Shown one piece after another: positions 14,527 to 51,816 of a stretch of 64,000 nucleotides of DNA. The notes under the pieces were generated by a model. It was not told the DNA's origin. It searched no databases and saw nothing but the letters and a program-made list of their open reading frames with translations. How positions within the stretch are numbered: the stretch's first letter is position 1; each line of letters opens with the position of its first letter. A program made the translations under genes and the position numbers. The DNA lies in contig JBBELK010000570.1 of assembly GCA_037783545.1 (NCBI GenBank), positions 682,001 to 746,000 on the forward strand, written 5' to 3'. The stretch is from Henricia sp. BOLD:AAB3569 (taxonomy: Eukaryota; Echinodermata; Asteroidea; Spinulosida; Echinasteridae).

Positions 14527-14651
14527 GGTAGATTAACGGTCGTAATCACAGTGGAATAACAGTCGAAATCGGATTGTTCCACCGTGATTCCGATAGTTAT
14601 TCCATCCGATTTCGACTGTTATTCCACTGTGATTACGACCGTTAATCTACC

Positions 14652-15350: not shown

Positions 15351-15547
15351 ACAATAAACTGCCCGGCTGGGTTAAAGCATAACCGTATTCCGATGAGACT
15401 GTTTTCGTGAACATTTTCTTCTACATATACCGGTAGCTATATTTTTCATGCATGTTAAAGAGTTGCGAAGTTCTAAAAGTGTGTAAGTTAAGTTTATGTT
15501 ATATTTTTGTGTTAAAGAGTTCCCGAGTTTTGGTTTTCAGGGACTGA

Positions 15548-15566
15548 AAATGTTGGGAGGGGGGGC
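15548..15566 (+). promoter_or_regulatory. Polypurine tract of the LTR element
   Basis: AAATGTTGGGAGGGGGGGC immediately precedes the TGTGACGG start of the LTR copy at 15,569. In LTR retrotransposons this tract primes plus-strand DNA synthesis. The mirror copy is at 13,612-13,630 on the minus strand. Confidence 0.75.
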
Positions 15567-15568
15567 TA

Positions 15569-25344: not shown

Positions 25345-26897
25345 TCACCTGTCCTGGCCTCCAGTATGGGTTCTCATGTGTGTCTTCAAGCTAACCCTCC
25401 ATGTGAATGTCTTATCACAGTGTCTGCATGCATATGGCCGCTCACCAGTATGGGTTCTCATGTGTGTCTTCAAGTGGCCGCTCTCTGTGAATGTTTTATC
25501 ACAGTGGCTGCATGCATATGGCCGCTCACCAGTATGGATTCTCATGTGTGCCCTCAAGTTACCACTATCTGTGAATGTTTTATCACAGTGGCTGCATGCA
25601 TATGGCCGCTCACCAGTATGGGTTCTCATGTGTGTCTTCAAGTGAATACTCTGTGTGAATGTCTTATCACAGTGGCTGCATGCATATGGCCGCTCACCAG
25701 TATGGGTTCTCATGTGTGTCTTCAAGTGAATACTCTTTGTGAATGTCTTATCACAGTGGCTGCATGCATATGGCCGCTCACCAGTATGGGTTCTCATGTG
25801 TGTCTTCAAGTGAATACTCTTTGTGAATGTCTTATCACAGTGGCTGCATGCATACGGCCGCTCACCAGTATGGGTTCTCATGTGTGTCTTCAAGTGAATA
25901 CTCTGTGTGAATGTCTTATCACACTGGCTGCATGCATATGGCCGCTCACCAGTATGGGTTCTCATGTGTGTCTTCAAGTGAATACTCTCTGTGAATGTCT
26001 TATCACGGTGGCTGCATGCATATGGCCGCTCACCAGTATGGGTTCTCATGTGTGTCTTCAAGTGAATACTCTCTGTGAATGTCTTATCACAGTGGCTGCA
26101 TGCATATGGCCGCTCACCAGTATGGGTTCTCATGTGTGCCCTCAAGTTACCAATCTGTGTGAATGTTTTATCACAGTGGCTGCATCCATATGGCCCCTCA
26201 GTTGTCTTGCCCAGTCTTTGTTTCTTCACAGCATCTCTTTTAGAATTTCTACCCGACATTGTTCCTGAGTGAGTTATCATGTGTTTCTGCAGAGCACTGT
26301 TCTCTCCAAATGTCTTCGTGCAAACATTACAGGAATAGGGCTTGGCACTTGTATGAATTCTTACATGCTCTTCAAATGAGCTGTCATCCGAGAATGTCTG
26401 ACTGCAGTAATTGCAATGATGTTGCTGCTCCACAGGGTGAATTCTCTTATGTGCTGCTGAACGACTTGACATAGAACCAGTTCCTGCCAGTGCAGAGTTT
26501 TCATCATGGCATTCTGTTTTAGATTGGTCATTGTGCATCCCATGTTGGTGCTTCATCAACAATGCATTCGTTGAGAATATAACGCCACAGAGCCGGCAAA
26601 TGTATTGTCTTTCATAATTTGTGTTTTCTTTACAAACACTGTGGCTAGACTGATTCCCACACTTTGATTCGGTACATTTCTTAAATCCTCTGTGGACACT
26701 GCTGAGGGATTTCTTTACTTGTGATGCTATTTTAACATTACATGAATTAATGTTAAAAGAAGACACTTTGATCTTTTGACTCTTCAAGTAGTTATACCAC
26801 TCTGTAGAGGACTGGTGGGATTGTCTAAGATGTGCTGCCAGAAACTTGTAGCCTGTGAAGATTTTACTGCATTTTTGACATGGGTGACGCTCTGCAT
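25345..26897 (-). CDS. PRDM9: PRDM9-like exon 8: zinc-finger exon
   Basis: Acceptor TTTTGCACAG before ATGCAGAG, entered in phase 1; stop TGA at 25,345-25,347. It opens with the PRDM9 post-SET finger [19 protein letters not shown], then a linker of about 45 residues, three divergent fingers (YICRLCG.., HHCNYCS.., YSCNVCT..) and ten tandem 28-residue fingers ending TGGQDR. Vertebrate PRDM9 likewise places its whole array in one terminal exon. The three intermediate fingers are an addition relative to the mammalian layout. Confidence 0.93.
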
Positions 26898-29800
26898 CTG
26901 TGCAAAATTTTAAAAGATTAAAAGAAACAAATTAAAAAAGCATTAAATCACAAAGTTTAAAACATCTTGCTGACCAGCTAACAATTTTCAGAGCCAGATA
27001 CAATACAGATTGTGCTAGAAAAACGGAAACCGAGAATAACACTAATTACTCAATATTGAAACTAAAAACAAACGGAAAGGACTATCCATTTCATCACTAA
27101 GAAATCCAGAATACCTTCAAGGATAAATGAGCACCGTTGGTTAAAAGCGACTGTCAGAAACGGCTTTGTACCAGACTTAAAATATATTAATAAATAAAAA
27201 AAGAAACAGAACAAAATTAAAAATAATCATGGGGTCGTGGGTTCAAGTCCCACCTGAGCACGCAACGAGTTTTAGCGTGTCCTCGGGAAACGCACTTAAA
27301 ATAGTGCATATCGCGTTGTGATGGGCAAAAAAGAACTTCCACAATATCATTAAAGTTTGTTTTGTTGAAGGCTTTTTTAAAGTGATTCTTTGTCTTTTTA
27401 TGTTGATCATTTTTAGCAGATGATGCATAATCTGGTACAAAACTATTTCCAACAAGGTCGCTTTGAACCATCGGTGCTCAGTCATCCATGAAGATATTCT
27501 GGATTTCTTGGTGTCATAGGGAATGAGGACACAGTGATTGAATCTTGGTTTCCTTTTTTCTGGGTCATTTATCCTGTACTAAACCACTAGTTATACCTTA
27601 AGATATTGTAAACCTCAAATTTTATCCGACTGTAAAAACCTTACATGGAAAATAAAAGTGATTCCAATTGTGCGATTCCATCTCAGATTCTTTTATATGA
27701 AAATAATGGAATAATTACACAATTTGTTTTTTACAAGAGCGCCCTCGTGTCAAAGAAAATAAGTGCATGATTGCAGTGTCCAACCAGTACAACCACAGAA
27801 CCAAATAGGACAGTGGCTTTGCAAAATTTCTTAAAAACATCAACACAGTTTTTAGTTGTTTTCTCAGAGCGAATATAAGGCACTGAGCTGACACAGGTTT
27901 GTTTTTATCATTTACATCTTTTATTCGCCTGAAGATAATGTTTTTAACATTCAGTTTGAAATAATTATTTTATCACTTCTGAAATGTACAACAAGTTTGC
28001 CAACTTACTGATGGTCTTTTGTGTGTCACTCTTGCCATTCACTACAATCCCCAGCTCAGCAGCATATTCCTCTCCATAGAACACAAGCAGCTCTTGGCCC
28101 GGGTAGATTGGCTTAAAACTCCTGTAGTAAATGTGTTCTTGATACTGGTAAGCCACGAGGTTCTGCTCAGTTTCACTGCAAGCACAGTTCACATAGCGCA
28201 TCCAGTTGCCTTTGGTTAAGCTCTTGCCATCCACATAACGGCTTTTCCCATCACGATCAAAAATCTGCAGAGAAATGTTCAAGTGCTTTCATGGATGACA
28301 GTGAGCACCAATGGTTCAAAGCGACTAAGGGCAAGTTCGGGCGGGCGACTAGACTTAACCAATATGGCATATTCGATATATGGCCTTGAGCAAGTTCGCG
28401 CAGGCGACTATAGTTAACTAGACTGACCTAGCCCCGAGTGACATCTACATGTAGAGCTGCTTTCGAGCGCTCGTCCCTGGTGCTCCTAGGTGTTGGGAGC
28501 GTTACGTCACATACATGCATACACACCCAGTCGCGCATTACGTACGCACTGTGGACGTTTCTTTGTATTCGTGCACTCAAGAAAATTGGTCGGAAAATCA
28601 TTGTTTTTTTCCAAATTCTTCCCTCTTCCACCCCAATTTTTTTTCTAATCCATGTTTCTAAACTTTACTCCTGAACCCTAACCTTTTTTTTTAAGCCTCC
28701 ACCCCCACCCTAATCCCTTTTCCCAAGTTTGGACAACATGACTGTGGACTTGAGCGAACGAGTGCAAGTCCACAATCCGTCACTTTTCCCCGCAAATTGT
28801 GGACTTGAATGGGTTTCGAGTACGCAAGGTGTGTACTTGTAAGCTTTCAGGCAAACACCATGGAGCACCAGGGATCCCTGGTGCCGCACTCGAAAGCAGC
28901 CGTGATCGACTATGGTTAACCGTATAGTCACCCAAACGCTGCATGGTTTGACTAGCTAGTCTGACTAGTGGACCCAAGCCTCGGGGGTAGGTTAGTCTAG
29001 TTAACTATAGTCGCCCGCCCAAACTTGCTCTTTTTCACCCGAACGCTGCGTGGTTTGACTAGCTAGTCTGACTAGAGGACCCAAGCCTCGGGGGTAGGTT
29101 AGTCTAGTTAACTATAGTCACCCGCCCAAACTTGCTCTTTGTCACCCGAACGCTGCGTGGTTTGACTAGCTAGTTTGACTAGAGGACCCAAGCCTCAGGG
29201 GTAGGTTAGTCTAGTTAACTATAGTCGCCCGCCCGAACTAGCTCCATGTGACCCTGTCAAAAATAGTTTTGAAACAGATTGTGGTTTGTCTCTTTATCGT
29301 TTCTAAGCCGATAAACATATTCATAATATGGTACAAAGCTATTTCCGACAGGGTCTTCTGGAACCATCGGTGCTCAGTTATCCATAAAGGTATTCTGGAT
29401 TTGGGTCTTTCCAAAAAACCAGGAGCCAAAGTATGACATTTTGATGCATTTGTAAAATTTGTCATTTTAAGTTAACAAAATGTCTAAATAATGTAGAATA
29501 TTTAAAATAATTTAAAAACGGTTAAACATGTCTTGGTATCATAGTCTTGAAAATATTCAAGAAAATTGTTTCACGGCGTAATGGGGGACTTCAAGGCATT
29601 TTCAACTCTTGCGATTACATTTCAAGTCTTTTTGACCAGTTTCTTTCTGGAAAGGGTAGTTGCTGATTTTACCCAGTTGTACAACCTGGACTTTATCGAT
29701 TCAAATTACATTATGAGCGAAATTTGTCAGTTGCATGCATTTGTTTTGAACAGCGCCCTCAAGTGGTGAGTGTGTTCATTTAGGGCGCTGCATGCTCAGT

Positions 29801-32800
29801 GCAGTGGCGTAGCAAGCAAGGTATGGGTGGATCACCTCCCCCGCCCCCCCAAAAAAAATCTGGACCAGTGGAGAAAACTGATATCAAAATCTAATTTTAC
29901 AGTAATTCCAACCACGACATGATTTTCCAAAATTACTGAGTGATTGGTTGCATTTTTGTTCTAGGACACCCTTGACATAGACATACTGTATCACATACAA
30001 ACGTATAGGTGTTTTCCCTTTAATACAGGAAATTATGTTTCCCCATTTCGGTGATAATTGTGAATGAAAGATTTCATCTTCCCTTTCCTCCATTAAAATA
30101 AAATCAATGTAACAGCGAGACTTGCAGGAAAAAGAGTTTGCAATATGGCCCATTGTTGAAATAATTAATTGTTTGCATCACAATGACTGCACACGCATAG
30201 CGCGATCAAGAAAATGCGCAGCACGGGCAGTGATTCTCTCAAAACAACAACTGATCGTGCCCGACACGTACTATGGGGAACAACACAAAGATGGACGCAC
30301 CGTGATGAAGGTCTAGGATTGCAACAACTGAAATTACCTCCCAAGCATAACCGCCGTCACGCCCAGCATCTCCTCCAACGATTTCTCCTCCGTATGGTCC
30401 AAACCTCACACCTTTAGGGAAGAACTTCTCAGCCCAAACACCAAGGCCAGCATCCTTGATGCTTGCTTCTTTCACCACCAAACCATCTGGGAGGCTGCGT
30501 CTGGCTTGATCTCGACACCCTTTGGGAACTGGTGTATTCTCGATGATGGTCAATGGATGGTCAGGACAGTCGTGCTCGTAGAGTTCATGGCAGTCTTCAC
30601 AATCTGTAATGTTTAATAGTACATATGGTAAAAGATCATCGGTTTGTCCACATTTGTATCGGATTTATTCACCCCGGTGGTCCCTTGGTCATAATCTCAA
30701 AAAAAAACAAAAAACAAGCAACAAATTTTAATGGGCCACGCACGCGCTCGCAACGATCCACCCATACCTTGCAACGCCACTGCGCTGAGCATGCACCACC
30801 CTCAAGAGATGAACACATTTACCACTTGAGGGCGCTGTTCAAAACAAATGCATGCAGCTGTCATGGCCGTTATATCGACGTTGATGCGATAGATTTGCGT
30901 GTTAAGTGATCGATAGTAGCAAGCAAATCATGTTTGTTGAATTTACACCTCATTTTGAAATGACTTGGCTGTACTTTCATTATTTTTGTCTGGGCGGCAA
31001 ATTTTTGTCTGGGCGCTAACGGTACCTGTGATGATTTTGTCCGGGCGGCGCCCCCGGACAAAACTGGCAGTGGAGATCACTGATTAAGCAGAAGGCCCGC
31101 AGTTTGAATCCCGGTGGAGCCAACTTGTTTTTCATTGCATTCAGGTTTCCCAAACTCATGGACATTTGTCCACATTTTTAAGAAATAATTTTGATACAAC
31201 AATACGCACACACAAAGCAGTCATCACTGGGTCCATCTAGATCCTTGTAGCATTTCTTGGAGCCTGCTCGTTGAGGGTAACGACGAGCATTTTCGTTCGA
31301 CTGGCCAGGAGCTAAATGGAAGAAAACAGCAAATATGATATGATCTCATACAGACCACTTCCCATCAGGCTGTCGTTGGAATGGTAACAAGTTTCATATA
31401 ATGGCAATAACAATGCGTGCATTCACAATTGCAATACTATATTGTACTACTGAGATGTGTCAAAACAACTTTCGACTTGGTATCCTCTATTGTCTACATG
31501 TATGTGTTGAGGTCCCGTTGCACCTCTTGATGTTGTGAAAAACGATCGAGATGGTTTGCAATAACATTAAGGGTGATCCTGCATTTCTTCAGAAGATTTC
31601 AATTGCAGCATGCACATTCTGGTCACCACCCTCTCCAATGATATATTGACACGTACTGAAAGGTGACGAAACTCACTCAACAAAATTCATCGGGCCTTGT
31701 ATACATGATCAGAAATTTTGGTTTGAATCCGTCTAGAAATAGGACTTTTTTTGACACGTAGTATATCACAGTAAAGAAACACATGATTCCAATATTTCGG
31801 TAATCTCATATTTTGGTCATTTTTGACACGATGAACAGGTACCATACACATGTTTGTTAACTTGCTGTTTGCTCTTTTGTAAAAGTTCAGTTCTTGGGGA
31901 AACCGGAGGGCTTTGTGAAAATGGGTTTCCAGCCAAAATTGTACAACGTATGTATACCGGTATGTGATGTGTATTTACTGGAATTCCGCTATTGTTTCTA
32001 AGAACACAATTTGTCTGGATAGTAACCCATTTTTACAAAGCAAATTCTGTGCTAAGCAAATGTTTGTGCTCAGCAGCAACATGAAATTGGACCAGGATAC
32101 TACAGGGTGTATCAAAACAAAGTATACACTCAGAAAAATGTCAAAAAAATGAAAACTTTATAAGTTTCAGAATTTCTCTCTATACATATTGGTAGTCAGA
32201 CATTTCAAGCCTTAAATGACACCACGATCATTTGGTAAACTTCACGCATGACTGACCATGTTATTTCTTCATAAATGTTGGCAAACGTGGCTTGCGCACA
32301 AAAATGCAGGGTTTTTAACACAACCAAATAATGGTGTCATTTAAAGTTTGAAATGTCTGCCTACCAATACCGGTATGCATAGAGAGAAATTCTGAAACTT
32401 ATAACGTTTTGTTATACTGAGACGATGGTAAAATAGAAAATGGCAAAATGTTACTGCTGTCCGCATTTGGACTTTTTCACACGGGAACATTTTTCCGAGA
32501 CCGTGGGAGAGTATGCGCAGTATCCCTTCACATGTATGCTGTGTTCGTACTAGACTTATCGTCTCGGGAAAAGTTCTCTGGTCAATTTTGCTGGGCAGCA
32601 GTTGGCCAGAAAAAGCAAATGCAGGACTTAGGAAAGTAGAAGAAAGTGTCCTAGGCTGTCCGCATTGGACTTAAAATGGGAAAAGTACCCATCGTCTAGG
32701 TACGTTTTCCCCAAAAAAGTCCATTGGCGACAGGCCTAAAGAGACACAAATGTAACCACTGGTAATAAAAACGGTATCACTGTTATTTTTAGTTGTACCG

Positions 32801-35800
32801 CTGTTATTTTTAGCGGTACTGCTGTTTTTTTTAGCGGTTAGTTTTGGGTGTCATTCCTTTTGAGCACAAACCCTTAAAAATTTTCGAATCAAACATTTGT
32901 TTTCTGCAGAGGCTAGATATCCAATTTGTATCAAGTAAACCATTCAAGTAAACCATTTCAAACCTGGTTTTCTTGCTCTCCTCTTGCGTGGTATCTCATC
33001 AGACTGTTTCTCTACACTCTCAAGATCTTCATCAGCAATGAGGTCTCCATCTTCATTGATCGTCACTCGGCCCATATAGTCAAATGTATCTTCACCCTCT
33101 CTTTGCGGGGGTGCAGTTTTAGACGGTCCTTGTCTTGAAGAGTTCTGAGTGCAAATATCCAAATTTGAGTCAAGAGAAAAACATGCATTGTAAGCAAGCT
33201 CAAATAGTGTTCTCTTGCAGACTGACTTGATGCTCCGCTAGGCTGAGCTAGGCGACCCATGGTGTTACCCTCAAGTTTCCCCAAGAACCTAATTTTTTTA
33301 AGCACAGCGTAGATCGACCTTGCAACTGGAAGAGACTCAACTGATCGGTTGCTGTCGATGTCCATTTTACGTATTCAGATGCACTTGTGCAACTAAACGC
33401 AACTAGTTGCAAGAGCTTGTACATCAACGAAATTGACCGCAACTAGATACAACTAGTTGCCGAAAGTAGAACACGAGTAACTCACGGCTACTGCAATTTT
33501 TGCAGTTGCAAGTGTGCATACATGTACATCAACTAATGTTGTAACGAAGTCCTCAAGTTCGGGTTCGGTTCGGGAAAAGGTCTGAAATGTCTTCCCGAAC
33601 ATTTGTTCGGTTCGGGTTCGGCAAGTATTGTCAGCGGTGTGGGTTTCGGTTGAAAGTGATCACGCACGTGCAGCTAGCTTTCTTTATAAATTAGGGCCTA
33701 TGTATTCCCCTTTTGCTTGGAGGATGAGAATGTGTCAATGCACTTTTTGACAATAGCAATGCATTTTGTGACATTTCACTTTACACTTGCCCCGTATTCA
33801 GCTGTGCTGCACATCCCCCAATTGCTTAATCATAACAAATGACACATCATCGTAAAGAGGAATAACAGGGCTTTCCAATGATATAAAATTCAAGGAAAAT
33901 TATTTTGCAACAAGAGAGAAATCGTCAGTCAAACTTGACTTTCCGAACTTTTTTTGGGGAGTTTACATCGATTCATCATCTATGCTTCAGAAAACCTTCA
34001 AAATTCATTCATGCTTTTTGTGTTAAGTGAATGGTAGAAAATGTGTGGGTTAAGGTGAGTGATACAAGTAGGTAGGCATGTTCGTTTGTTTCTGCTGTTC
34101 AGGCCCGTGTTGTGTGTGCACATTTCCCCCTCTGAAAACACTTTAGAAGTACGGCTAAGTCATTCCAAAATGCAATCGATTTGCTGGTCGCTGGTGTCAT
34201 TGGTCACTTACCACGCATATCTATCGCATCAGCGACCTAATCTGTGGCCGATAATGGCCATGCATGCATCTGTTTTGAACAGCGCCCTCATGCTGCGAAC
34301 GAGGGTTGGTCAGTTTTTGTCGCAGGAGGGCGCTGCTCAGTTCGCCTGGACAAATTGTCGACCAGTGGTGAAAACTCATTGAATATTAAAATTACCTCGG
34401 GTTGGCGTGAATTGGCTTTGTGCTTAACAGGAACTCGAAATGTCTGTTTCCTCTTGCACACTGATGGTGCTGCAACACAAAAAATATGATTAGCATTCAG
34501 AATTGATTTTTATGCACTTTGGGAAAGTGTCCACAAGCTGCCAAAATCTTACTTGTTCATGAACTACATGTACATTTACTATCAAGTATTAATGCAGAAT
34601 GCGGGTATTTTTTAATAGCAAAAACAAATCCTTGTCCCGAAATAATACCAAGTTCTGCCAGGTTGAACTTGCCCTAGGATGGCCTGGTACCCTCAGTCAT
34701 GTCAGTACGGTACCCTCAGTCATATCAATACGGTACCCTCAGTCATGTCAGTACGGTACCCTCAGTCATACCCTTACAAAAAAGTCCCATGGTAGCGCTA
34801 TGGGGTCGCCATGGGTTCCTCATGGTGTCTCATGGGGTTTTGGACAAAACTCATGGTGGTGACTAAAACACCATGGTAGCCCACTTGAACACCATGATGA
34901 TCCATGGGAACACCATGATGAACACCATGGGAACCTCATGGGAAGTGGCCAAAACCCCAAAGGAAATCGCCTTGGGACATTTTTGAACAGGATGTCAGTA
35001 CGTACGGTACCCTCAGTTTGCTTGAAATATATACAGTAAACTCTCATTATAGCACTTTTCAAGAGACCAAAATAATTTGAGCTTTATATCCAGAAAGCGC
35101 TATTACCAGTGCATACACATAACAGAGAATAATGGCTGGGACTTAGAAAAAAGGAGCTTTATATCGAGAGGAGCTTCACATAACGAGAGTTTACTGTAAA
35201 TGTGAAATTAAAGTCGATCGCATCCAACATTAAGCACAAAGTCTGTCACAGATTGATTCTAACTCGGGTTTAATCCATGTTGATTTTAAAGCAGTCTTTC
35301 ACTAAACATGTGGGTGAGGAGTGCGTGATGGTTACATTGCCTATATACTTCACTCAAACAAAATTAATTTTGAGGTGGGAAATGCAATTATGAAAATGTG
35401 CTTTACGGTATAAGCTCCAACCTGTTTGTCTGTGAGATTTCTCCGTTCCACCGGGCTTCCAATCTTCATCACTATCGCTGGAGTCAACGTACTTGGGCTT
35501 CTTCTTGCGAAATGGTCCATTCATAAACTCTGGCTTCGATACATTCAGACCTGTGGAGGGTTCAAACATGCAGTTTGTTAAAGTTATAGCCTACTACTCA
35601 CAAATGAAATGCGAGACACTTGAAAGTCAGTTTTTAGGGGTGTTTAGCATATGATACAAATGCACATTTGAAATGTTCCACTAATCATCAAGCTGCTTGT
35701 GATAAGCCACCTTGATGGGTCACAGTTCAGCATATAAGCCTATTAGGCCAAAGTTAGGAACAGGATAGGCCAAAGTAATATATAACAGGCCTAACAACAG

Positions 35801-41800: not shown

Positions 41801-44800
41801 TGATACTCAGTGGGTCTTTCACACTGTCAATTTGGATCCATTTACGAAAAAGCAATATTTTGTATATTCTCAAGAAAATAGCAATTCAACTTTTTCTCTG
41901 CAAACGGTGTTTAAGAGTCAGTCCACAAAAAGACCATGCAAAATCTTTAAAAATCGGCAAGGTGGGGGGTCAGCGAATCAAAGTCAAATTCTACCCACTT
42001 AACCCCCTTCTGGAACAATGAGACCCAGTGGAGTAGCTCGGCCAATATTCACACAGGGGCCGAGAACAAGGCACCAACAATTTCCGTTAAAAATTAGGGA
42101 CTTCTGGGTAGTCATTTTTGAGACGTTTTTAGCGTATAATTATCGTCGCGTTATGCGCTCTACCAAAATCGTATATTGTCGACCTGTACATCAAATGAAA
42201 GATCAGTTTCTGCTCTACACGATGTATCATAGACCCTGGAGTTGCAAGTAATCACGGCAGGTTTTTAGGCCTTGAGAAAACATACATCAGTTCCTGTAGT
42301 AAAAATACATCTTTTACGCGCTGATCAATAACGCAATTAGTGCAGGGAAAAAATTCACCAATCTTGGTCAAAAATATAGTTCAATTATCCAGCTACAAAA
42401 ATAAAAAATAAAAAAATTGTCAGCTTTTTTAGTTTGGCGTCAGGAGCGGAATGAATTTCTACCAATTCCAGTTAAAGCCACGCTCATCGTACTAGCGCGC
42501 TACCAACAGAGGGCGCCATCACATTGCACATTCCCGTCAGCGTGTTTTTTTTTACACCGCAGCGAGGGGTACACCCCAATTCTAAGTTTCCAATGACTGA
42601 TACTTCTCAAGTGACAATCTTGGAAATAGTCAGAACTCTTACTCTCACTATTAGAGAAAAAGAAGAAACCGATAAATTTCGGAAAATCCCAAACAACACT
42701 GAGATTTGAACCAGGGACCTTATGATTGCAAGTCGAGATCTCTTCTAACCAGACAACGAAGCTGGTTGCAAACCGACCGCATTCAAAACCCTAAATTCCT
42801 TAAAAATAACCAACCCTAACCCCTAACATATTATATAGTCTCCTTTCAAGGCGCTAAAAAGGTACAAAACCCCTCGTTTTCCCCTCGCAGTGGTGTAAAC
42901 AAAATTACGCTTCCTGCGTAGATAGCGGCTGTTGATATGCCGACTGTGGCATTGCAGTGCGATTTTGCTGATTTAGACCAATGTAGAAGCATTCAGTGTG
43001 GTATTTACCTGTTCTATCCGAATGAAAAGAAGACATTGAGCATTATTTGCAGATGCACAAAAGACATTCGGAGGCACTTGCAAAAGTGGAAAGTTGCTGT
43101 AAATGACGTCAAACTGGAATGGAAACTAATTCTCCTGCGCTGTGGTTTGTTCGATGTTGATGCTCATGGTGATATGACAATATGCCCGGCACATAGGTAC
43201 AAATTAGGGTTGAGTTGGACATCAACAAGGAATTGTACTCATCCACTCCAGGAAGGAAAAGTGAAACCATTTCGTGGTGTGAATAAAACAACAAGTCGTG
43301 AGGTGTTTGATCGATGGGGTACCCTTCTCCCAGTAGGAACAGTTGAGTCATGTCATGCATTGTTCCCCCTCCCCTCCCCGGGGTGCCCCACCCAGGAGGT
43401 GGGGATTCTTACTTTTGCGCGACAAAATCCCCACTCCTAGAGCAAAATTTAGGCGACAAAAAATCCCAATCCTCAGGTGCAAAACATGCACGCCTTGCTA
43501 TTTATGCATATCACATTATCAGTGGGTCAAAATCCCCACCCTTGGGCTCAGGTCAGATAATGCAGGCTGTTACTACTGTGCACCTCTTATCCTATCCATG
43601 GCTGATCTCTCAAGAAAAGTGAGCATCAACATTTGAAGGTATGACTTCTCTGAGGTGCAGGCAGGAAAGGACATATGTGATCATAAGATAGCACCAATGA
43701 AAGCCCATATCGAGAGGTATGTAAATGAAGGAAACAACGTACTCACTGCTGATGACATGCACACTGCCTTGGAGTCATAACAAGTGAGAGGATGCTATGC
43801 CGCCGTTATGACAATCGGCGACATGCCATCTTCACAGGAAGCTCTCAGATGGCCAGGTGTTACCAACTATACAAATTTCTGTTTTGAGGAAAGTGGAGTG
43901 CGCTCCTGGCTTGCTTACAACATCAAGAACCAGTTCCATCCATATGCGAAACTGATCAAATGACCCCTTGACCCACTGAACACCGTTTACTCTGTTGGAC
44001 AGTACACTGAACCCAAAGTCTTTACAGGAGTAATTTGTCAAACTGCATCAAAACCTTCCGAACGGATGAGCTCCTCACACAACACTTGGCAGCATGACAA
44101 CATATGTGTCGTCCCCTGCGGGAATCTCGTTTTGACCAGATTGCACGTCAATGGGCTGAAAAGGTTGGTGAGATGCCACTTGGTACCTCTCATTCTGATC
44201 AAGGTTCAACAGCAGCTTCTGCCTCCATGTCCCAGCCACTCGAGTGTGGATGGGCTCGCAAAATGTTCAGGCCAAACAAGAGGTTCTCGCGGGAAATAAA
44301 GGATTTCTTGCTTGCTCAGTTCATGGTTGGAGTTGAAACGGGAAAAAAGGAAAATCCAGAAACTGTGTCCCGCCGTCTGAAAAGTCAGTTCCGCAAAGAC
44401 GATTGGTTGACTGTCCAACAAATGACAAGTTACTTCTCCCGTCTCACTGTCCTGCAGAAATCAGGGACTCTACATGTACCCTCCAAGGACCTCTCTAATG
44501 TTGAGAACAGTGTGAAAATGGCTCAAAGACAGATTCTTGCAGATGCTGTGCAGGAGCAGTGTGGACTGTAGAGACTTGTCCTGCCCCTCACTTGCCACCA
44601 CACCCCTGCCGGCTTGGGGTACATCATAATTATTATACAAATATCACATAGTTTGAGTGTGAATAGTCGATATTAGCTCCCCAAGGTATTGGAAGTTGAC
44701 ACGCTCGTGTGTCTGCACGCGCGTTGTACCGTCGCGGTGCTGTCGTATCGTGTGTACTGCGCGCTGTATGCGCTATGTCCAGTTGTTTCGTAAATCGGGC

Positions 44801-47800
44801 TGCCGAGAAAGAATGCTTCACAAAGCGCGTGCCTCCCACCCCTGCCACTTTCCACCCCGCCTCCGCCCACCACCTCGCCCAATGCCCTGACCGCCCCCCT
44901 TTTGAAATTCGGGAATGGGTATTTTTCACAATTTTACATTTGTTACGGTTAGTGCCCCACTGGAAAAATGTGTGCACCTCCAGGTGTCCCCTCAGATGTC
45001 TCACCTAGTTACGCCACACCTTCCCACCCCACCCCATGCCATGCCTCCCCACCCCTGCCACTTTCCACTCTTCCTCCGCCTACCACCTCGCCCCAATGCC
45101 CTGACTCGCCCCTGTCATGCCTCTCCACCCCTTCCACTAGCCACCCCGCCTCCAACCACCACCTTGCCCCAATGCCATGCCTCCCCACCCCCTGCCATGC
45201 CAACCCACCCCTGCTTCACCCTCACCCCTGACATGCCTCCCCACCCCTGCCATGCCATCCCACTCCCCACTCCCCACTCCCCACTCCCCACTCCCCACTC
45301 CCCACTCCCCACTCCCCACTCCCCACCCCCACCCCACATTTGGAAAAACATGCAAATATAGGTTCCTATTGGTAAACAGCTAGATACAATTATGATGAAA
45401 ATTGAAGTCCCACTACACCATACTAGAAACTGCTGACAATTTTTTTATTAGTGCTGCCAAGAGATCACCATACCAACACTCTTTCACCAGAAATTCATTA
45501 CTGAAGGACCTGCACTAATGACAGTACGGTGGCTTAAAAATGACACATAATGTGTAACATATTTAGTGGTACCCTTTAATAATGACTTGCCATTGCCTTT
45601 TATGAGTATTATTTTTTCTTGGTTTGTAGTTCCCCAAATAGGTCAGGATACACCCTCAAGACCCTGCAAGTTTGATGGCTCTACGACTTTCCATTGTTCA
45701 GCAGCAAGCGTTTGAAGTTATGTAGCCCAAAATGGCGAAAATAGCCCAATCATTACAAGTAAAATATATTTTGGGCTCTCATTTGTGGTACGGAGATTGG
45801 TTTGGCCTAAAACTTTGTATAAGTTCAAGGCTCCCTATAGCCCACCTACCCACCAAATTTTACCCAAATTTGCCGACCCCCACCTTGCCACGATTTGCAT
45901 GGTCCTCTCATGGACACACTCTTAAATAAATGGCTTCCTAAAGAGACTTTAACCTCGGGTATTTGTTTTCAAATCAGATCTGATGTGTGTGTGCAGTAAA
46001 TGAACACACCAATGTCGACCGATCTGTCACTAAAATGCCCTCTCGGACAGAAATGCTTGGTGGTGCTCTTATTGTTAAACGCCCGAATTGTGTATTTTTA
46101 GTGTACATTTCTCATAGTTAAAAAGCTCAAAAAATGACCCAAAGTTTTACATGATTGAACATAACATGTGTGTGAGAAAAGCCAATCTGTTCATAAGTCA
46201 TTTCAATGCCTTATCATTTTCTGTGGCTGCACCTTGTCTTTAGAACAAATAGCCATGACACATCACCCTCGATACCTAATTTTTAACATGCACTTAAAAA
46301 CTTATCTGAATGTCAACTGCTATGCATCAGTACATTGATCACTTTCTAGTGGATATCATTGCATCAGGATGCTTTCTGCAAATTGCTTTAATCAAAGCAT
46401 TTTCTTTTTCAGAAATGTTCCGAGGGACACACATCTTTTTGCTGCCAAGAGACCATTCAAAGAAGTCATGTAGCAGATCTAAAGCTGGGAGCAGCACTAG
46501 TGCTGGCAACAATTACAGGAACGTGGCCCTCATGTTTACGTTCATGAACTTGAACATGTTCCATCCAAACACTTTCCACAGCTACCAATTGAAATTTGTC
46601 TTTCCCGCGATTGATGACATGGCATCCGGCGTCTTTCAGCAATCAAGGGACAAATGCCTTGGCAAGAAAGTTGTGGTTCTTGGTAAGTTATGTTGCAAGT
46701 GCCATATTAACTATTCATAATCAATGCATTCAATGTACACTAAAACTATAGTGGCTACCCAAGGGACGAACAAAATCTGGCCAGAATAAACAGGTGGTCT
46801 TACACAGAGGTTAAGCAGGCACATGCATGGATAAACAATAATTTTATAACATACAGCTACGCTGTAGAAGTAATACATTATGAAGTTGATATCTTTCAAG
46901 TTTTTATCAACTTTTTAGGCTTCTCATAAAATTTCCCTTTTTTTAAAACAAAATTTTATGCAAGTTGCCCATTACAAGGCCCGATGGCCACTCGAGGTAA
47001 GGGCTACCGAAGACAATTACGGAGAAACCAGCTCTTCACACCGAAACAAGATCAGAATTACGAGTCTCTTTACCATACAAGTGGGGCTGGGAGGGGTAAC
47101 TAGTCCGAAGCGAGACAACCAAGTTGCTTCTGCCCCTATTATGAGCAAGCATGGTAAAGTGCCTTGCTCAAGGGCTCAAGTGTCACAACCTGTCACGGCC
47201 AGGATTCAAACCCATATTCTAGTAGTGGCACATGAGGCAATTTACTGTATGTGGCCAGATTATCCAGGTTCAACTGCTATAGAATTGTATACAAAGAAAA
47301 TCTATTGCCCTGGCCCATTGACCATGTTAGAGAGGGCCCTAATATCAAGGTTCCACCTTCAGATGTTTGTGTACACTTTGGAAAGGTGGCCTGGCCTATA
47401 ATAACAGGTTTCACTCTTGCCAATTATTTACATTATTGATTGTTGTCTTTTTTTATCCACATCTGTGCAGGTGATGGGCGAAATGATAGCCCAGGGCATT
47501 CTGCTCAGTACTTGACATATCAATCATGGACAATGCCACAAAGGAGATACTTCACATGGAGTTCATAGACAAGAGGGAGACTAAGGCCCGCTTCAAACGT
47601 TGCGCTTATGCCGTGTCAAATCAAATTCAACTTGATTTTTTTAATTCGACACGGCACAAGCACGACGTTTGAAACCATTTGGCTCGGAAAAATGAGTTCG
47701 ACACGGCAGAAGATTTTAGCTTGACAGGGTCTGCCGTGCTAACTCTATTTACTGCGGCACAAGCACGGCTTTGCTTCAAACGTCGTGCTTCTGCCGTGTC

Positions 47801-50800
47801 AAATTTAATTCCAGTTCGAAGTTGGTCCGCGATTTTGTTCCTAACTAGGAATGCGCATGCTCGCAGCGCGTAATGTGAGTAAAGAAATAACCAACAAACA
47901 AGTGCATCAAAATAATAAAATGGCGACGTACAATGGACAGAATGGAAAACGCACGTGCACAACTTCCATGACGTGCACAATACTCATCCGCCATGTTGGA
48001 TGTATTTAAGCTCGACTGTGAGTTTGCAATTAAGTTCGACGTTTGAAGCCAACGTCGTGCCAACGTCGTGCCATTTTTGTCAAGCTTTCATCAACAGGTG
48101 CAAGCAATAAGTTGCCGAAAGAAATGTCTGTTACAAAAGAATTCTTTTGCCGCCCTATCTACGTTTTTCAAAGCTGAAGTGACTGAAAGAAACAAAAAGG
48201 AAAATTTTACTGCAAACGGCATTTCCAATTTTCCTCTAATTATTGTGTCCCGTCACCTGATTGCGTTGTTTGTAATTTGTTCACATTAGGCTTAGGCCTA
48301 CTTGGAATATGTTTTCTTGCGTATTTAAACATTTATGCAATCGATTTGTCAACCATATCATCTGCAAGTAGAGAATGACAATTTCTTCAGAAAAATATAG
48401 GAATTTCTGTGGTCTGTATCTCCTTTTGTCAGCGGTGTACAGAGTGTTTTGTACTGTAGGCCTACTACCCACGTACTAGCCTCCTACTGTATATTATGTG
48501 CAACTAAAAAATGGAAAAATTGGGTGGTTGTATCACAATTTTGCGTGTTTATTAAAGAAATGAGCGCATGTGTAAATGAGCATATTGATGTGAAATTCTC
48601 ATTGCTTATGTTGTTTCAGATTAATAACCACACAAGATGGTGATATTACCACCCAGTTTTTCCGAGCCGCATACGTTTCCCATACGCGTATATCATCACA
48701 AGGGACCAGGTGGCTTGAAAAATACGGGGTGGTTGCCTCACAATTTTACGTGTTTATGCAAGAAATGAGCGCATGTGTGCATGAGCAAATTGATGTGAAA
48801 TTCTCATTATCTATGTTTCAGACATGGAGGAAGTTGTTTTAGATGAAAAATGTGATACAACCACCTTATTTTTTTCCCGAGTCGCACACGTTTCCCGTAC
48901 GCATCATATTAGAGACTATATTGGGGACCATTAGAAATAGTACAAGTACGGTATGCGGTTCGAAAAATCGGGTGGTTGTATCACAATTTTGCGTGTTTAT
49001 TTAAGAAATGAGCGAATGTGTACATGTACAGAGGCCTATTGATGTGAATTTCTCAGATTAATAACCACGCAATATTTCAGGACAATAACTAACGGCCCGG
49101 TTTTTGACTGTTTTCTGAAAAGTCACCGTCGGAGAGATTACACTATTTGAAACGGTTGACCAATCATGTATACTGCCTTTAATTCAAATAAACACAATTT
49201 AAGAAAAATAAAGAATGTCTTTGGTCTGTGTCTCCTTTTGTCAGCTGTACAGTAGTGTTATGTGAAATTAATTAACCACTTTTGTGAAAATGTCACAAAA
49301 ATTTTCAATACATTGTATTCTACAAAACCCGGCCGAGAGTTTGAATTTCAAAAAAAGTTGCGTTTTTCAACAAACTCGTCAACCTTGTTTTCACAAAAGT
49401 TGTAACAAATTCACAAAACTTTGATAAGCTGATTTCCTCTTGTTTCCTCATATCCCATTGAAAATTTGGAATAACTACCAGCATACACCACCTCCAGTTG
49501 AGACTTCATGCACTAAATCTATGGAACATGGCATAAAGATTCAAAGGAAAACTTTACATTTTCACCCCTAAATTCATGTTTCTTCACCATATTTACACTT
49601 TCTCAGTGGGGTGTTGTGTCATCTTATTCTTATGAAGGATTAGTGGCGAGGGTGTATGGTATTTATACGGAATATAAAATAAAAAACTGTCCTGCATTGT
49701 CCTCTTTTTTTTAAAAATGGAGCTACATGTATAACGTATACGGTTACCCATATACAAACATCGCCTAAAAAACACGTACATTATAATAGGTATACGGTTT
49801 ACTGTGCATATGCCATTGACCTCGATCGACTAGCCATGCGCGCGCGCGTACTAGCTCACGGTGTCAGATTACGACTTGATTTGGTTACATATCAAACAGC
49901 TGTTGTATTAGTAAACTACGTAAACATGAAACAGTGCATGCTTTATCCATGCATCGATTTATTTTATCAGTTCGGACGCAAGAGGGCGCTAGTACAAAAA
50001 CTCGCCGGGACTTTTGGTTTCACACAATTTCGGAAGAAAAACGACACGATTTTTTACTGTTTTCTCAAAAGTTGGACGAGGTATGGAGCTGGATTTTACT
50101 GAGGTTGGTTTTAATCATGCATATCTTCATTCACACAGGGAGATGACACTATATGACACTATTTGTAGTCGCTTACCAATGATGTATACTGCCTTTAAGT
50201 CATATTTGTCAAACAGGTTCCAGAGCGTAGTGATTGAGGACACCCATTCTGATGAGAAGGCAGTTAAGTATGGGGTTCCTCAGGGCTCCGTCCTGGGACC
50301 GAAATTGTATAGCATCTACACTAGGCCTATTGGTCATATTTTGAGTAGTTATGGTCTTCCTTACCATCTTTACGCAGATGACCTTCAGGAATATGTCCTA
50401 GTCAAACCGTCCCCTGTGAATTTAGCTGCTGCTATTGGTAAAATTCAGGAATGTTTGCTTGAGCTAAAATCTTGGTTTAAGATTAATGGTCTCAAACAAA
50501 ACGATGACAAGACTGAATTTATGGTTTTTTGTCCAAAACGACTAAACGGCCTTTGTGAAAAAGTTTCTCTTATGGTGGGTGACTGTACTGTTTATCCATC
50601 GAATAAGGTCAGGAACCTTGGTGTCCTGTTTGACAGGAACCTGGATATGGAAAAACATGTTAGTAACATATCCCGAGTATGCTACTATCAGCTACGTAAC
50701 ATCAGTAAAATAAGGAGGTTTCTTACTGATGATGCATGCAGAGCCCTTGTTCAAGCCACTGTTGTATCTAGGCTTGACTATGCAAATGCCCTCTTATATG

Positions 50801-51752
50801 GTATAAGGGTCGATCTTATGAACCAGCTTCAACGGGTCCAAAACACAGCAGCTAGGATCATTACCAAGACAACTAAACGAGCCCACATTACACCTATCTT
50901 AATCCAGCTTCATTGGTTACCTGTTTGTCAGAGGGTAGATTTTAAGATTTTATTGTTGGTATAAAGCACTAAATGAACAAACGCCAACTTATGTTACTTC
51001 CATGATCCAGCAGTACAGACCAACTCGGGCTCTGCGTTCTGCAGATCAGTACCTCCTGTCCGTTCCAAGAACAAAAACAAAAGGTTTTGGAAAGAGGTCC
51101 TTTAGACAGGTGGCTCCTGATCTGTGGAACGCACTGCCTTTGGGTGTGAGGTTGGCAGGATCAGTCAGTGTCTTCAAGAAAGTTTTGAAAACTCATCTTT
51201 TTACTAAATGTTTTAACTAGTACATGTAGTTTGTTTTAATGTATTTTTAGTTTTGATGTACGTTTTTATCCTAATTTTAATGTAAAGCGCCTTAGAGCTT
51301 TTTTGGATTCTGGCGCTATATAAGTAATGTATAATAATAATAATAATAATATGTTACACTCTTATTGCACGAATCTGTAAAAAGTTTTATCTTGCAAAAG
51401 ATACAGGGCCTTTAAACTCCCAATCCGAGTAAACTGTGTGGCTTTAGAGGATTGTTTTATAAAAGGCAACCAGTACAGTCAAAGAACCAGTCGAACAATG
51501 AGGCATGCGCACACAGTTATTTTTGATTTGCGGGGCATTCTCCCTTGCTCCTAAAAGTAAAACATGTAAAGGTCTAACCAATTACAAAACCCGCAACTTC
51601 AACATCAAAGAACAACACTTACCAATTTCTATCATCATTTCATAGTTCTCCTTGATGTTTCTCAGCCGCAGCTTTTCATAGTCTGAGAGTTCCTTAAATT
51701 CACTTGCATTAAAAAACTGCTCAATATCATCTGAACTGCTCGCTTTCGGCAT
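25345..51752 (-). CDS. PRDM9: PRDM9-like histone methyltransferase (8 coding exons)
   Basis: Joining eight exons (51752-51623, 35550-35422, 34469-34396, 33144-32964, 31311-31210, 30603-30338, 28264-28009, 26897-25345) gives 2,691 nt, 896 residues plus stop, with every splice phase matching. Human PRDM9 is 894 residues. Domain order: KRAB (about 9-43), SSXRD-like (about 170-205), zinc knuckle (207-218), PR/SET (about 240-365), post-SET finger (about 385-408), three scattered fingers, then ten tandem fingers. Tyr276, Tyr341 and Tyr357 are present at the human numbering. In vertebrates PRDM9 binds DNA in meiotic prophase and trimethylates H3K4 and H3K36 to place recombination hotspots. Introns are full of transposons, yet no frame damage is seen. 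The first, non-coding exon was not located. Confidence 0.9.
25366..26190 (-). repeat. Coding minisatellite: ten 84-bp zinc-finger units
   Basis: Ten C2H2 units of 28 codons with TGERP linkers. Frameworks are almost invariant ([17 protein letters not shown]); differences concentrate at helix positions -1, 1, 2, 3, 5 and 6. The -1 residues run Q, E, E, Q, K, K, Q, D, E, W; position 3 is N, H (six times), N, H, S. The third unit reads CSHRD, so its second zinc-binding cysteine is an arginine. This is the pattern of a PRDM9 array: DNA-level homogenisation with selection on contact residues. Confidence 0.93.
26898..28008 (-). other. PRDM9-like intron 7
   Basis: About 1.1 kb between the PR/SET exon and the zinc-finger exon. 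It holds a hairpin-shaped SINE/MITE (about 27,105-27,510) and AT-rich unique sequence. Donor CATCA|GTAAGT, acceptor TTTTGCACAG. Confidence 0.8.
27105..27510. mobile_element. tRNA-related SINE with inverted ends
   Basis: Contains the B-box-like GGGTTCAAGTCCC within GGTCGTGGGTTCAAGTCCC, followed by CTGAGCACGC, as in the SINE at 60,885-61,025. The ends are inverted copies of one another (ATCCAGAATACCTTCAAGG at the left; ATGAAGATATTCTGGAT at the right), suggesting two head-to-head pieces. Fragments of the same unit recur at 28,294-28,326 and 29,262-29,402. Confidence 0.6.
28009..28264 (-). CDS. PRDM9: PRDM9-like exon 7: second half of PR/SET
   Basis: Phase 0 entry after TTTCTCTGCAG, exit CATCA|GTAAGT in phase 1. 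Encodes 85 residues starting [14 protein letters not shown]. It has the conserved NWMRYVNCA and EQNLVAYQY segments, IYYRS (Tyr341) and [14 protein letters not shown] (Tyr357), which form the cofactor and lysine-channel side of the PRDM9 PR/SET fold. Confidence 0.95.
28330..29243. mobile_element. Inverted-repeat element with internal tandem repeats
   Basis: Ends are GCAAGTTCGGGCGGGCGACTA and GACTATAGTCGCCCGCCCGAAC (decayed complements), with inner inverted blocks around 28,440-28,490 and 28,855-28,910. The right part (about 28,930-29,243) consists of three tandem copies of about 111 bp, each containing TTTGACTAGCTAGTCTGACTAG and AGTTAACTATAGTC. Non-coding; sits in PRDM9-like intron 6. Confidence 0.7.
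29640..30900. repeat. Inverted repeats bracketing the first PR/SET exon
   Basis: The segment around 29,730-29,850 (GTTTTGAACAGCGCCCTCAAG ... AAGGTATGGGTGGATC) reappears as its complement around 30,755-30,865. The exon at 30,338-30,603 lies between them. The CAGCGCCCTCA motif also occurs at 34,278. The pair could be two copies of one MITE in opposite orientation. Poly-A and poly-C runs adjoin both copies. Confidence 0.65.
30338..30603 (-). CDS. PRDM9: PRDM9-like exon 6: zinc knuckle and start of PR/SET
   Basis: Acceptor AAACATTACAG; split codon gives Tyr, then [15 protein letters not shown], a Cys/His knuckle that precedes the PR domain in PRDM9. Then [22 protein letters not shown] and FGPYGGEI, where Tyr276 lies, and GGYAWE at the donor TTGGGAG|GTAATTTC (phase 0). 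88 full residues. Confidence 0.95.
31210..31311 (-). CDS. PRDM9: PRDM9-like exon 5: SSXRD-like segment
   Basis: 102 nt, phases 1 to 1, acceptor CTTCCATTTAG, donor GTGT|GTGCGT. Encodes [21 protein letters not shown] followed by SDDCFVYC across the junction, aligning with the human Y-S-L-R-E-R..Y-K-E..DDDYLYC stretch. SSXRD is a short repression motif shared with SSX proteins. The donor is weaker than its neighbours but is the only GT that keeps phase. Confidence 0.85.
31312..32963 (-). other. PRDM9-like intron 4
   Basis: Holds a decayed MITE copy (about 31,890-32,095) and a hairpin element (about 32,145-32,410). The segment at 32,430-32,760 contains duplicated CTGTCCGCAT(T)GGACT words. No gene seen. 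Confidence 0.7.
32145..32410. mobile_element. Hairpin MITE
   Basis: Arms containing ACTTTATAAGTTTCAGAATTT...CTCTATACATATTGGTAG and the reverse complement at 32,350-32,405, around a loop with two CAACCAAATAATGG-type blocks. Non-coding. Confidence 0.75.
32964..33144 (-). CDS. PRDM9: PRDM9-like exon 4: acidic and basic linker
   Basis: 181 nt, phase 0 to 1; acceptor ATTTGCACTCAG, donor AAACCAG|GTTTGA. Encodes 60 residues: an acidic centre ([18 protein letters not shown]) then a basic tail ([10 protein letters not shown]) that may act as a nuclear localisation signal. No domain is recognised; position corresponds to the KRAB-SSXRD linker. Confidence 0.85.
33145..34395 (-). other. PRDM9-like intron 3
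   Basis: No gene seen. Contains repeated AACTAGTTGC words (33,395-33,470), a GGTTCGGGTTCGG-type tract (33,556-33,640) and a MITE fragment with CAGCGCCCTCA (34,278). Donor CCCGAG|GTAATT, acceptor CACTCAG. Confidence 0.6.
34396..34469 (-). CDS. PRDM9: PRDM9-like exon 3: short linker exon
   Basis: 74 nt, acceptor TTGTGTTGCAG (phase 1), donor CCCGAG|GTAATT (phase 0). Encodes [20 protein letters not shown] plus RQPE. Support is the clean splice sites and the exact phase fit; sequence similarity to other PRDM9 proteins is weak here. Confidence 0.75.
34683..34770. repeat. 23-bp tandem repeat, four copies
   Basis: GGTACCCTCAGTCATGTCAG units with 1-3 substitutions each, followed by a CATGG-rich stretch (34,790-34,960) with several inverted ATGGTGTTC/GAACACCAT words. 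A lone half unit recurs near 35,000. Confidence 0.85.
35034..35196. mobile_element. pogo/Tigger-like MITE
   Basis: 163 bp with ends CAGTAAACTCTCATTATAG and CATAACGAGAGTTTACTG, flanked by TA (35,032-35,033 and 35,197-35,198). The CAGT terminus and TA duplication fit the pogo branch of Tc1/mariner. A weak internal palindrome is seen, with GCTTTATATC occurring in both halves. Confidence 0.85.
35422..35550 (-). CDS. PRDM9: PRDM9-like exon 2: post-KRAB exon
   Basis: 129 nt, phases 1 to 1, acceptor CCCTCCACAG, donor CAAACAG|GTTGGA. Encodes LNVSKPEFM..., a basic KKKPK run, and [11 protein letters not shown], aligning with the human RPAFM...DTEDSDEEWTP stretch that directly follows KRAB in PRDM9. 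This similarity links the distant KRAB exon to the rest of the gene. Confidence 0.92.
35922..36380 (-). mobile_element. TTAA-type DNA element 'B', second copy
   Basis: 459 bp, starting AGGGCCTGTGACATCC after TTAA (35,918-35,921) and ending TAAATAAGGGGGCCCT; the right duplication has decayed to TTGG. Reverse orientation to the copy at 7,288-7,843 and about 100 bp shorter. A sequence such as GCTGCAGTTTCTACCCCCAG is shared. Confidence 0.85.
36495..36987. mobile_element. Inverted-repeat MITE
   Basis: Ends ATTTACACTCGATTCG and CCGATTCGAGTGTAAAT, with GTGTAAACGC words repeated internally on both strands. Non-coding, about 0.5 kb, in the large PRDM9-like intron. Confidence 0.7.
37230..37840 (+). 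pseudogene. CR1/L2-like LINE, 5' part of reverse transcriptase
   Basis: Reverse-transcriptase start of a Jockey-superfamily [51 protein letters not shown] and [15 protein letters not shown] (catalytic region A with the first Asp). The frame runs to TWFK and then stops being LINE sequence exactly at the TTAA where the 12-kb element begins. The remainder of the same LINE continues at 50,195. The endonuclease end is missing, so the insertion is 5'-truncated. Confidence 0.9.
37863..40768 (+). other. 5' non-coding part of the 12-kb element
   Basis: No supported gene. A Lys/Arg-rich open frame near 38,430-38,680 has no recognisable domain. Segments at 38,940-39,040 and 39,895-39,990 are inverted relatives (CAACTCGTACGC / GCGTACGAGTTGG words), which may mark a further foldback insertion. 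The block around 39,360-39,780 contains GGATCCGGAGGGTCC-type inverted words. Confidence 0.45.
40769..40879 (+). pseudogene. Kolobok-like transposase, exon A
   Basis: Acceptor AATTTTTACAG, donor AGCAA|GTAGGT. Encodes [20 protein letters not shown], then [17 protein letters not shown]. Phase matches exon B (joined codon AAA). The acidic D-S-D..E pattern resembles the linker before the cysteine motif in such transposases; the family call depends on exons B-D. Confidence 0.6.
41080..41336. mobile_element. Tc1/mariner-type MITE
   Basis: 257 bp with ends TGGGTCATTCTGTAAATTTG and the complement of TGGGTCATTCTATAAATTTG, flanked by TA (41,078-41,079 and 41,337-41,338). The same family is at 58,623-58,865. 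It lies in the intron between transposase exons A and B. Confidence 0.85.
41444..41729 (+). pseudogene. Kolobok-like transposase, exon B
   Basis: Acceptor TCTCTTTATCAG, donor ACATGG|GTTGGT; phase 2 to 0. Encodes [19 protein letters not shown], then [17 protein letters not shown], then [19 protein letters not shown] and AHITW. The C-x2-C followed by G-T-S and, across the intron, W-K-C-S-E-G-H is the zinc-binding pattern I associate with Kolobok transposases. No stop interrupts this exon. Confidence 0.7.
42524..42936 (+). other. Intronic stretch with a tRNA-like fragment
   Basis: Contains CAACACTGAGATTTGAACC and CTTATGATTGCAAGTCGAG, resembling the 3' half of a tRNA-derived SINE on the minus strand. 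No coding support. Confidence 0.35.
42937..44571 (+). pseudogene. Degenerate unidentified gene inside the 12-kb element
   Basis: Three collinear plus-strand blocks. Block 1 (42,937-43,350): a Cys/His-rich start with CRSIQC.., [11 protein letters not shown] and [17 protein letters not shown]. Block 2 (about 43,640-44,060): [16 protein letters not shown] and [15 protein letters not shown], with in-frame stops at about 43,778 and 43,963, and [17 protein letters not shown]. Block 3 (44,104-44,571): [38 protein letters not shown] and [10 protein letters not shown], ending in a stop at 44,569. I do not recognise the protein. The blocks resemble a repetitive protein family found in marine invertebrate genomes. 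It is a captured host gene or another transposon's gene, now broken. Confidence 0.6.
44600..45380 (+). repeat. C-rich low-complexity region with (CCCCACT)n
   Basis: Repeats of CCACCCCTGCCATGCC-like units (44,830-45,250) lead into about ten perfect heptamers CCCCACT (45,265-45,330). Open frames here are compositional artefacts. Confidence 0.85.
46413..46682 (+). pseudogene. Kolobok-like transposase, exon C (frameshifted)
   Basis: Acceptor TTTCTTTTTCAG, donor TTCTTG|GTAAGT. Reading starts [29 protein letters not shown], then similarity continues one frame over as [33 protein letters not shown] and GKKVVVLG. The exon is 270 nt where phase requires one more, so a single-base deletion near 46,505-46,520 breaks it. 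The pattern (LAAA..SG..Y.K... then Q..FV.PAID) fits the region before the catalytic motif. Confidence 0.7.
47090..47300 (-). mobile_element. SINE with GAGCAAGGCAC core
   Basis: On the minus strand it reads ATGGGTTTGAATCCTGG (B-box-like) then GAGCCCTTGAGCAAGGCACTT, the conserved central block of a widespread group of tRNA-derived SINEs in fish and marine invertebrates. Boundaries are approximate. Confidence 0.65.
47471..47590 (+). pseudogene. Kolobok-like transposase, exon D (frameshifted, cut)
   Basis: Acceptor CATCTGTGCAG; joined codon gives [17 protein letters not shown], a motif I associate with Kolobok-type transposases, and then, one frame over, [19 protein letters not shown]. The frame change near 47,522 and the inserted inverted-repeat DNA from about 47,590 destroy the remainder; the expected C-terminal catalytic part was not found downstream. 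Confidence 0.75.
47588..48080. mobile_element. Probable inverted-repeat insertion
   Basis: Rich in CGTCGTGCTTCTGCCGTGTC-like blocks on both strands: TTCAAACGTTGCGC (47,592), ACGACGTTTGAAAC (47,662), CTTCAAACGTCGTGC (47,774), CGACGTTTGAAGCC (48,038). It interrupts transposase exon D. Exact ends and target duplication were not resolved. Confidence 0.5.
48515..49100 (+). repeat. Subterminal tandem repeat, three units
   Basis: Units near 48,520, 48,722 and 48,965, each containing GGTGGTTGTATCACAATTTTG (or a close variant), AAGAAATGAGCGCATGTG and TTGATGTGAAATTCTCA. Unit length is 200-240 bp with variable tails. It sits near the right end of the 12-kb element, where DNA transposons often carry transposase-binding arrays; that role is inference. 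Confidence 0.8.
49159..49182 (+). repeat. Second copy of the right terminus, internal
   Basis: ACCAATCATGTATACTGCCT followed by TTAA duplicates the outer end at 50,175-50,198 with one base missing. The preceding 80 bases also resemble those before the outer end (TTTTTGACTGTTTTCTGAAAAG versus TTTTTTACTGTTTTCTCAAAAG). This means a nested or tandem related element end about 1 kb inside the boundary. Confidence 0.75.
50195..51356 (+). pseudogene. CR1/L2-like LINE, 3' part
   Basis: Continues the reverse transcriptase from 37,840: [39 protein letters not shown] (catalytic YADD), [18 protein letters not shown] and [16 protein letters not shown] frame shift near 50,960 moves to [15 protein letters not shown] and [20 protein letters not shown], the usual C-terminal end. 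The tail has AAGCGCCTTAGAGC, GGCGCTATATAAG and (AAT)n at 51,331-51,351, a 3' structure typical of the CR1/L2 group. The copy is inactive. Confidence 0.92.
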
Positions 51753-51816
51753 TGTGATGAAACAGATGGTGGTTGCAGAAAACTTTGCACACAAAATCAG
51801 CACCTTCTCAGTTAGT
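51623..51816 (-). CDS. PRDM9: PRDM9-like exon 1 (coding): KRAB domain
   Basis: Acceptor TATTTTTTTCACAG at 51,817; 64 nt of 5' untranslated sequence, ATG at 51,752, donor GAAATTG|GTAAGT in phase 1. Encodes [20 protein letters not shown] and [20 protein letters not shown] then IEIG. It aligns with the PRDM9 KRAB A box (DISIYFTKEEWAEMGDWEK..RNVKRNY..L..IG). No other in-frame ATG lies upstream before the acceptor. The upstream acceptor implies a non-coding first exon farther out, not located. In mammalian PRDM9 the KRAB domain contacts partner proteins such as CXXC1 and EWSR1. Confidence 0.88.

Follow-up and report, generated by a model that had tools for sequence, protein, structure and literature searches.

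Here, we describe a PRDM9-like gene in the sea star Henricia sp. BOLD:AAB3569, located in a 64,000-nt window of contig JBBELK010000570.1 (assembly GCA_037783545.1, positions 682,001 to 746,000 of the forward strand; all coordinates below are those of the window). The gene lies on the minus strand (25345-51752) and comprises eight exons that encode 896 amino acids and a stop codon, with zero internal stops when the splice model was re-derived. All seven introns are bounded by GT..AG with agreeing phases; exon boundaries were set by frame and splice consensus, and for exons 3-5 partly by picking what keeps the frame open. Exon 1 (51623-51752; aa 1-43) carries the start codon and the first part of a KRAB-like segment, as supported by the splice model and by alignment and profiles with PRDM9 relatives, and is followed by intron 1 (35551-51622; about 16 kb), which contains two plus-strand reverse-transcriptase fragments. 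By splice model and alignment, exon 2 (35422-35550; aa 44-86) supplies the remaining KRAB-like segment and an acidic stretch. Exons 3 (34396-34469; aa 87-111) and 4 (32964-33144; aa 112-171; acceptor picked by frame) encode linker in the splice model, and exon 5 (31210-31311; aa 172-205) encodes an SSXRD-like segment that is collinear in the alignment. The pre-SET zinc knuckle and first part of the PR/SET domain, including Y276, are in exon 6 (30338-30603; aa 206-294), the remaining PR/SET domain, including Y341 and Y357, is in exon 7 (28009-28264; aa 295-379), and exon 8 (25345-26897) encodes a proximal finger (aa 386-407), three spaced fingers, a tandem array of ten fingers and the stop. The eight-exon, 896-residue model offered by the first-pass annotation holds up, with in-frame joins as well as agreeing splice sites and phases; of the span it gave (25345-51816), the lower limit is exact, falling where the stop codon ends, and the upper limit runs 64 bases past the start codon at 51752.

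In order, the protein has a KRAB-like segment of ancestral type and an SSXRD-like segment, then a zinc knuckle and the PR/SET domain, and lastly ten C2H2 fingers in tandem. Pfam detects the PR domain (6e-43), SET (2e-10) and 14 C2H2 finger stretches in the 896 residues, and its KRAB and SSXRD models give no match to them. Both N-terminal segments are nevertheless collinear in an alignment with 24 chosen database proteins, which we take to represent echinoderms, molluscs, annelids, one thrips, three ray-finned fish and the coelacanth. A KRAB-region profile built from 11 invertebrate rows, with the Henricia protein left out, matched the Henricia protein at 1.1e-34 and, at 1.7e-22, a coelacanth protein whose database record is labelled Pfam KRAB, while a profile from two vertebrate rows matched the Henricia protein at 1.1e-17; 0 of 181 shuffled sequences matched either profile. 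Compared with solved chains, a 14-row KRAB profile that included Henricia and the two vertebrates ranked ZNF93 (7z36_D; 0.0011) and then ZNF568 (0.017) first, both presumably KRAB domains, ahead of unrelated chains at 0.16 or above. Despite the silent Pfam model, these cross-profile matches indicate that the N-terminal segment is a KRAB of ancestral type, and the SSXRD-like name, given by collinear alignment alone, is the weaker of the two. The four PRDM9 modules that had been read at this locus in their canonical order are accordingly retained with qualifications: PR/SET and the finger array as described, KRAB as an ancestral type recognized by profiles, and a putative SSXRD by alignment.

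Among solved structures, PRDM9 gave the best match (7e-50), followed by PRDM11 (2e-34) and then PRDM14 and PRDM1. The pre-SET zinc knuckle (C-C-C-H) and the proximal finger are both present, as judged by structure matches and residue checks. Tyrosine occupies the positions of human Y276, Y341 and Y357 in 25 of 25 aligned rows, the Henricia protein counted, and the Henricia residues carry the same numbers as the human ones (276, 341 and 357). Mammalian PRDM9 (PDB 4ijd and 4c1q, which we take to be the human and mouse proteins) has the PR/SET domain, zinc knuckle, proximal finger and three catalytic tyrosines in common with Henricia, whereas the Henricia KRAB-like and SSXRD-like segments have diverged past the reach of the Pfam models. 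PRDM11 (PDB 3ray), the second-best solved family, shares the PR/SET domain and zinc knuckle at a lower score than PRDM9. A bacterial SET-type model, the sole NCBIfam match, was rejected as too weak (20 bits, the cut-off being 550), and Rfam yielded zero matches at gathering scores.

Relatives were sought by a database search with residues 1-410, from which the best 120 of 186 matches were considered. Among the matches listed, the closest are the sea star proteins of Patiria miniata (70% identity), Acanthaster planci (66%) and Asterias rubens (62%), with 98-100% coverage; sea star, brittle star, several urchin, crinoid and mussel proteins in that set cover 88-100% of the 410 residues, and many of these echinoderm and mussel matches carry the name PRDM9-like. 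Across the PR/SET domain, the Henricia protein is 78-82% identical to sea stars, 55-61% to the urchin rows used and 45-46% to the vertebrate relatives checked (coelacanth and fish); the sea star values would most likely place its source in a genus other than those of the three closest proteins. Two PR/SET trees group it with the three sea stars (support 100/98), and in the second tree it falls inside the PRDM9/7 set, with PRDM1 (5 rows) and PRDM14 (4 rows) each forming one group. A single PRDM11 row sits on a long branch with vertebrate PRDM9, away from the Henricia protein, in both trees. The suggestion of the first-pass annotation that an invertebrate carries PRDM9 is therefore borne out by the nearest relatives, the trees and the first rank of solved PRDM9, and the PR/SET phylogeny assigns the gene to no other PRDM family, with modest support (61/87, second tree) for the deep branch that separates PRDM9/7/11 from PRDM1 and PRDM14. 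We consider it close to certain that the gene is a PRDM9 ortholog of an asteroid echinoderm.

The tandem fingers form an 84-bp minisatellite of 10 copies (25361-26200, minus strand; TRF, 94% matches), the first finger starting at aa 618, and the ten units, of which the last includes the stop codon, have a mean pairwise nucleotide identity of 0.903. At the DNA-contact positions, five residues are used at -1, three at 2, three at 3 and two at 6; contact variation is chiefly at -1, and I-H-T at positions 2, 3 and 6 is common to six of the ten fingers. Positions -1, 2, 3 and 6 hold a 0.498 share of the amino-acid diversity over 27 positions, a share equalled or exceeded in 19 of 100,000 random four-position draws in which positions were treated as interchangeable, and the share is 0.601 over the 21-residue core of all ten fingers and 0.620 over 28 positions of fingers 1-9. 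One of the ten fingers, the third of the array, has arginine in place of its second zinc-binding cysteine (aa 677; 26005-26007, minus strand). The PRDM9-like protein of Patiria miniata (bat star) has the same module order, an 82% identical PR/SET domain and tandem fingers likewise spaced by 28 residues, but has seven tandem fingers rather than ten, different contact residues and a finger consensus given as KSF/MRIH against KTF/MRTH in Henricia. Non-contact identity is 0.91 within the Henricia array, 0.89 within that of Patiria and 0.77 between them, and contact-position identity between the two arrays is 0.19. Because non-contact positions agree less between the species than within either array, the single-exon array has undergone concerted evolution, and its variation is focused on the DNA-contact residues.

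Array evolution focused on contact sites is tied to recombination-directing PRDM9 by Baker et al. (2017; PMC5519329); in their Table 1, the complete vertebrate orthologs that have a value show diversity shares of 0.331-1.000, and partial ones are mostly <0.33. We scanned 182 proteins (181 fetched plus Henricia), 102 of which have a strict run of at least four fingers. The median diversity share was 0.634 in arrays with a KRAB-like segment (n=21) and 0.367 in those without (n=81; Mann-Whitney p 9e-8), in a comparison where rows are related, many KRAB-less rows are catfish, gene models are automatic and the 21-position measure differs from that of Baker et al. Counter to this trend, Saccoglossus has the lowest share of the 21 KRAB-bearing arrays (0.264), under the KRAB-less median. 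The association of KRAB with array diversity appears to follow the rule that Baker et al. give for vertebrates, with invertebrates now included. The evolution of the array fits the inference of the first-pass annotation that the lineage retains PRDM9-directed recombination, a role that is plausible in sea stars.

Annotated PRDM9-like proteins of Asterias rubens (P0003 and P0121) and Acanthaster planci (P0002) have 2, 0 and 2 fingers, respectively, and no tandem array; the Patiria protein has nine fingers against 0 to 2 in these models, and the two Asterias proteins without an array come from two contigs that differ in length. The missing array may reflect true loss or poor gene models. Because these annotated proteins have no tandem array, not all sea stars may depend on one. 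We tentatively suggest, at somewhat short of even confidence, that fast-turning hotspots directed by PRDM9 are live in sea stars and that lineages like Asterias dropped the array and switched to another mode; if so, the vertebrate cycle of gain and loss would be repeated inside Asteroidea and could be tested there.

PRDM9 outside vertebrates has been described before. The literature places Prdm9 in the sea anemone Nematostella, the gastropod Lottia and the polychaete Capitella (Oliver et al., PMC2779102), full-length copies in many metazoans (PMC11703093, 2025), and an ancestral KRAB in sea urchin PRDM9 (PMC8835667). Sea urchin PRDM9 (Strongylocentrotus, Lytechinus, Diadema) is an echinoderm ortholog with an ancestral KRAB like that of Henricia and a finger array of its own. 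The first-pass annotation was right that the fusion of KRAB and PR/SET is ancient; the deep origin is not new, because PRDM9 of invertebrates, among them sea urchin, was published long ago, and databases already annotate sea star copies. The Henricia gene is a well-formed further example of known invertebrate PRDM9, not a surprise. On function, Baker et al. (2017; PMC5519329) limit direct evidence for a recombination role to placental mammals, such a role is reported for salmonid fish in a later paper (PMC11703093, 2025), and the passage concerned in a sea urchin paper (PMC11212366) mentions PRDM9 for other animals only. A limited search of the open literature found no work on PRDM9 in sea stars. 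A complete, fast-evolving echinoderm PRDM9, some of whose relatives within the class have annotated proteins with no array, offers a system in which to address the age of the recombination role.

The anatomy of the Henricia gene, its homology, its intact catalytic and zinc-ligand residues and the evolution of its array are evident at the locus, and from mammalian PRDM9 we infer DNA binding, methylation, expression and hotspot placement. The finger array would bind a short motif in the DNA of meiotic germ cells, trimethylation of H3K4 and H3K36 on nucleosomes near the bound motif would be the task of the PR/SET domain, and the KRAB-like/SSXRD part would help recruit the break machinery, with the outcome that crossovers would be placed at motif sites. 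A recombination role for Henricia PRDM9 seems moderately probable to us, and the account as a whole, an asteroid PRDM9 ortholog steering meiotic breaks through array binding and H3K4/H3K36 marking, is the reading we favor with similarly moderate confidence. Germ-line Prdm9 transcripts in a sea urchin and a gastropod, reported by Oliver et al. (PMC2779102), favor a germ-line role. Weighing against the favored account are the silent Pfam KRAB and SSXRD models, the cysteine lost from one finger, the concentration of contact variation at -1, the sea star proteins annotated with no tandem array and the low share of Saccoglossus.

The gene could instead be a complete PRDM9 ortholog whose role is to regulate transcription or chromatin and not to direct recombination, which we consider unlikely, if clearly the most serious of the alternatives. 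The annotated array-less sea star relatives suggest that the class may have a PRDM9 function independent of the array, and a review counts PRDM9 among the transcription factors that are upregulated when sea cucumbers regenerate (PMC8718600); this setting is somatic and suggests other PRDM9 roles in echinoderms. Because of this somatic expression, we slightly lowered our estimate for the recombination role and slightly raised that for a regulator; against the latter, array turnover focused on contact residues is the recombination-directing pattern of Baker et al. and would be unexpected of a stable regulator. That the gene is a recent pseudogene or decaying copy is very improbable: one finger has the cysteine-to-arginine change and vertebrate PRDM9 copies are often lost, as noted in PMC8892340, but 896 codons run without a stop or frameshift, every splice site is GT..AG and the catalytic residues are retained. 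Slightly less credible still is that the KRAB-like exon 1 belongs to another gene, making this a partial ortholog. Intron 1 is long, with exon 1 lying 16 kb upstream, and holds reverse-transcriptase fragments, but the proteins of Patiria, Acanthaster and Asterias, which are database gene models, join both segments gap-free (the Patiria protein is continuous across the exon 1/exon 2 junction in the alignment), donor and acceptor phases match, and the junction falls within a conserved segment. Membership of another PRDM family (PRDM11, PRDM14 or PRDM1) with an independently gained array can be dismissed as hardly credible, since the KRAB-like, SSXRD-like and zinc-knuckle segments are collinear with PRDM9, scores fall from PRDM9 to PRDM11 to PRDM14, and the two points in its favor are the modest deep-branch support and the first tree's single long-branched PRDM14 row, which fell within the echinoderms (81/86); with four PRDM14 rows in the second tree, that family moved out of them.

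The window also contains two perfect inverted repeats and several open reading frames (ORFs). Arms of 2,867 nt (11708-14574 and 14604-17470) are 100% complementary across a 29-nt spacer, each with the same C2H2-bearing ORF of 234 aa, and represent either a very recent palindrome or foldback element or an assembly artefact. The second repeat (17471-18396 and 22028-22953; 926-nt arms) follows the first directly, starting at the very next base; between its arms lie two ORFs on the minus strand that have no Pfam name and presumably resemble retroelement gag. Within intron 1 of the PRDM9 gene, the plus-strand reverse-transcriptase fragments (RVT_1 by Pfam) lie at 37281-37862 and 49993-50964, and three plus-strand ORFs of 157-192 aa (41424-44571), without a Pfam match at 0.01, may belong to a nested gene or to an unrecognised mobile element.
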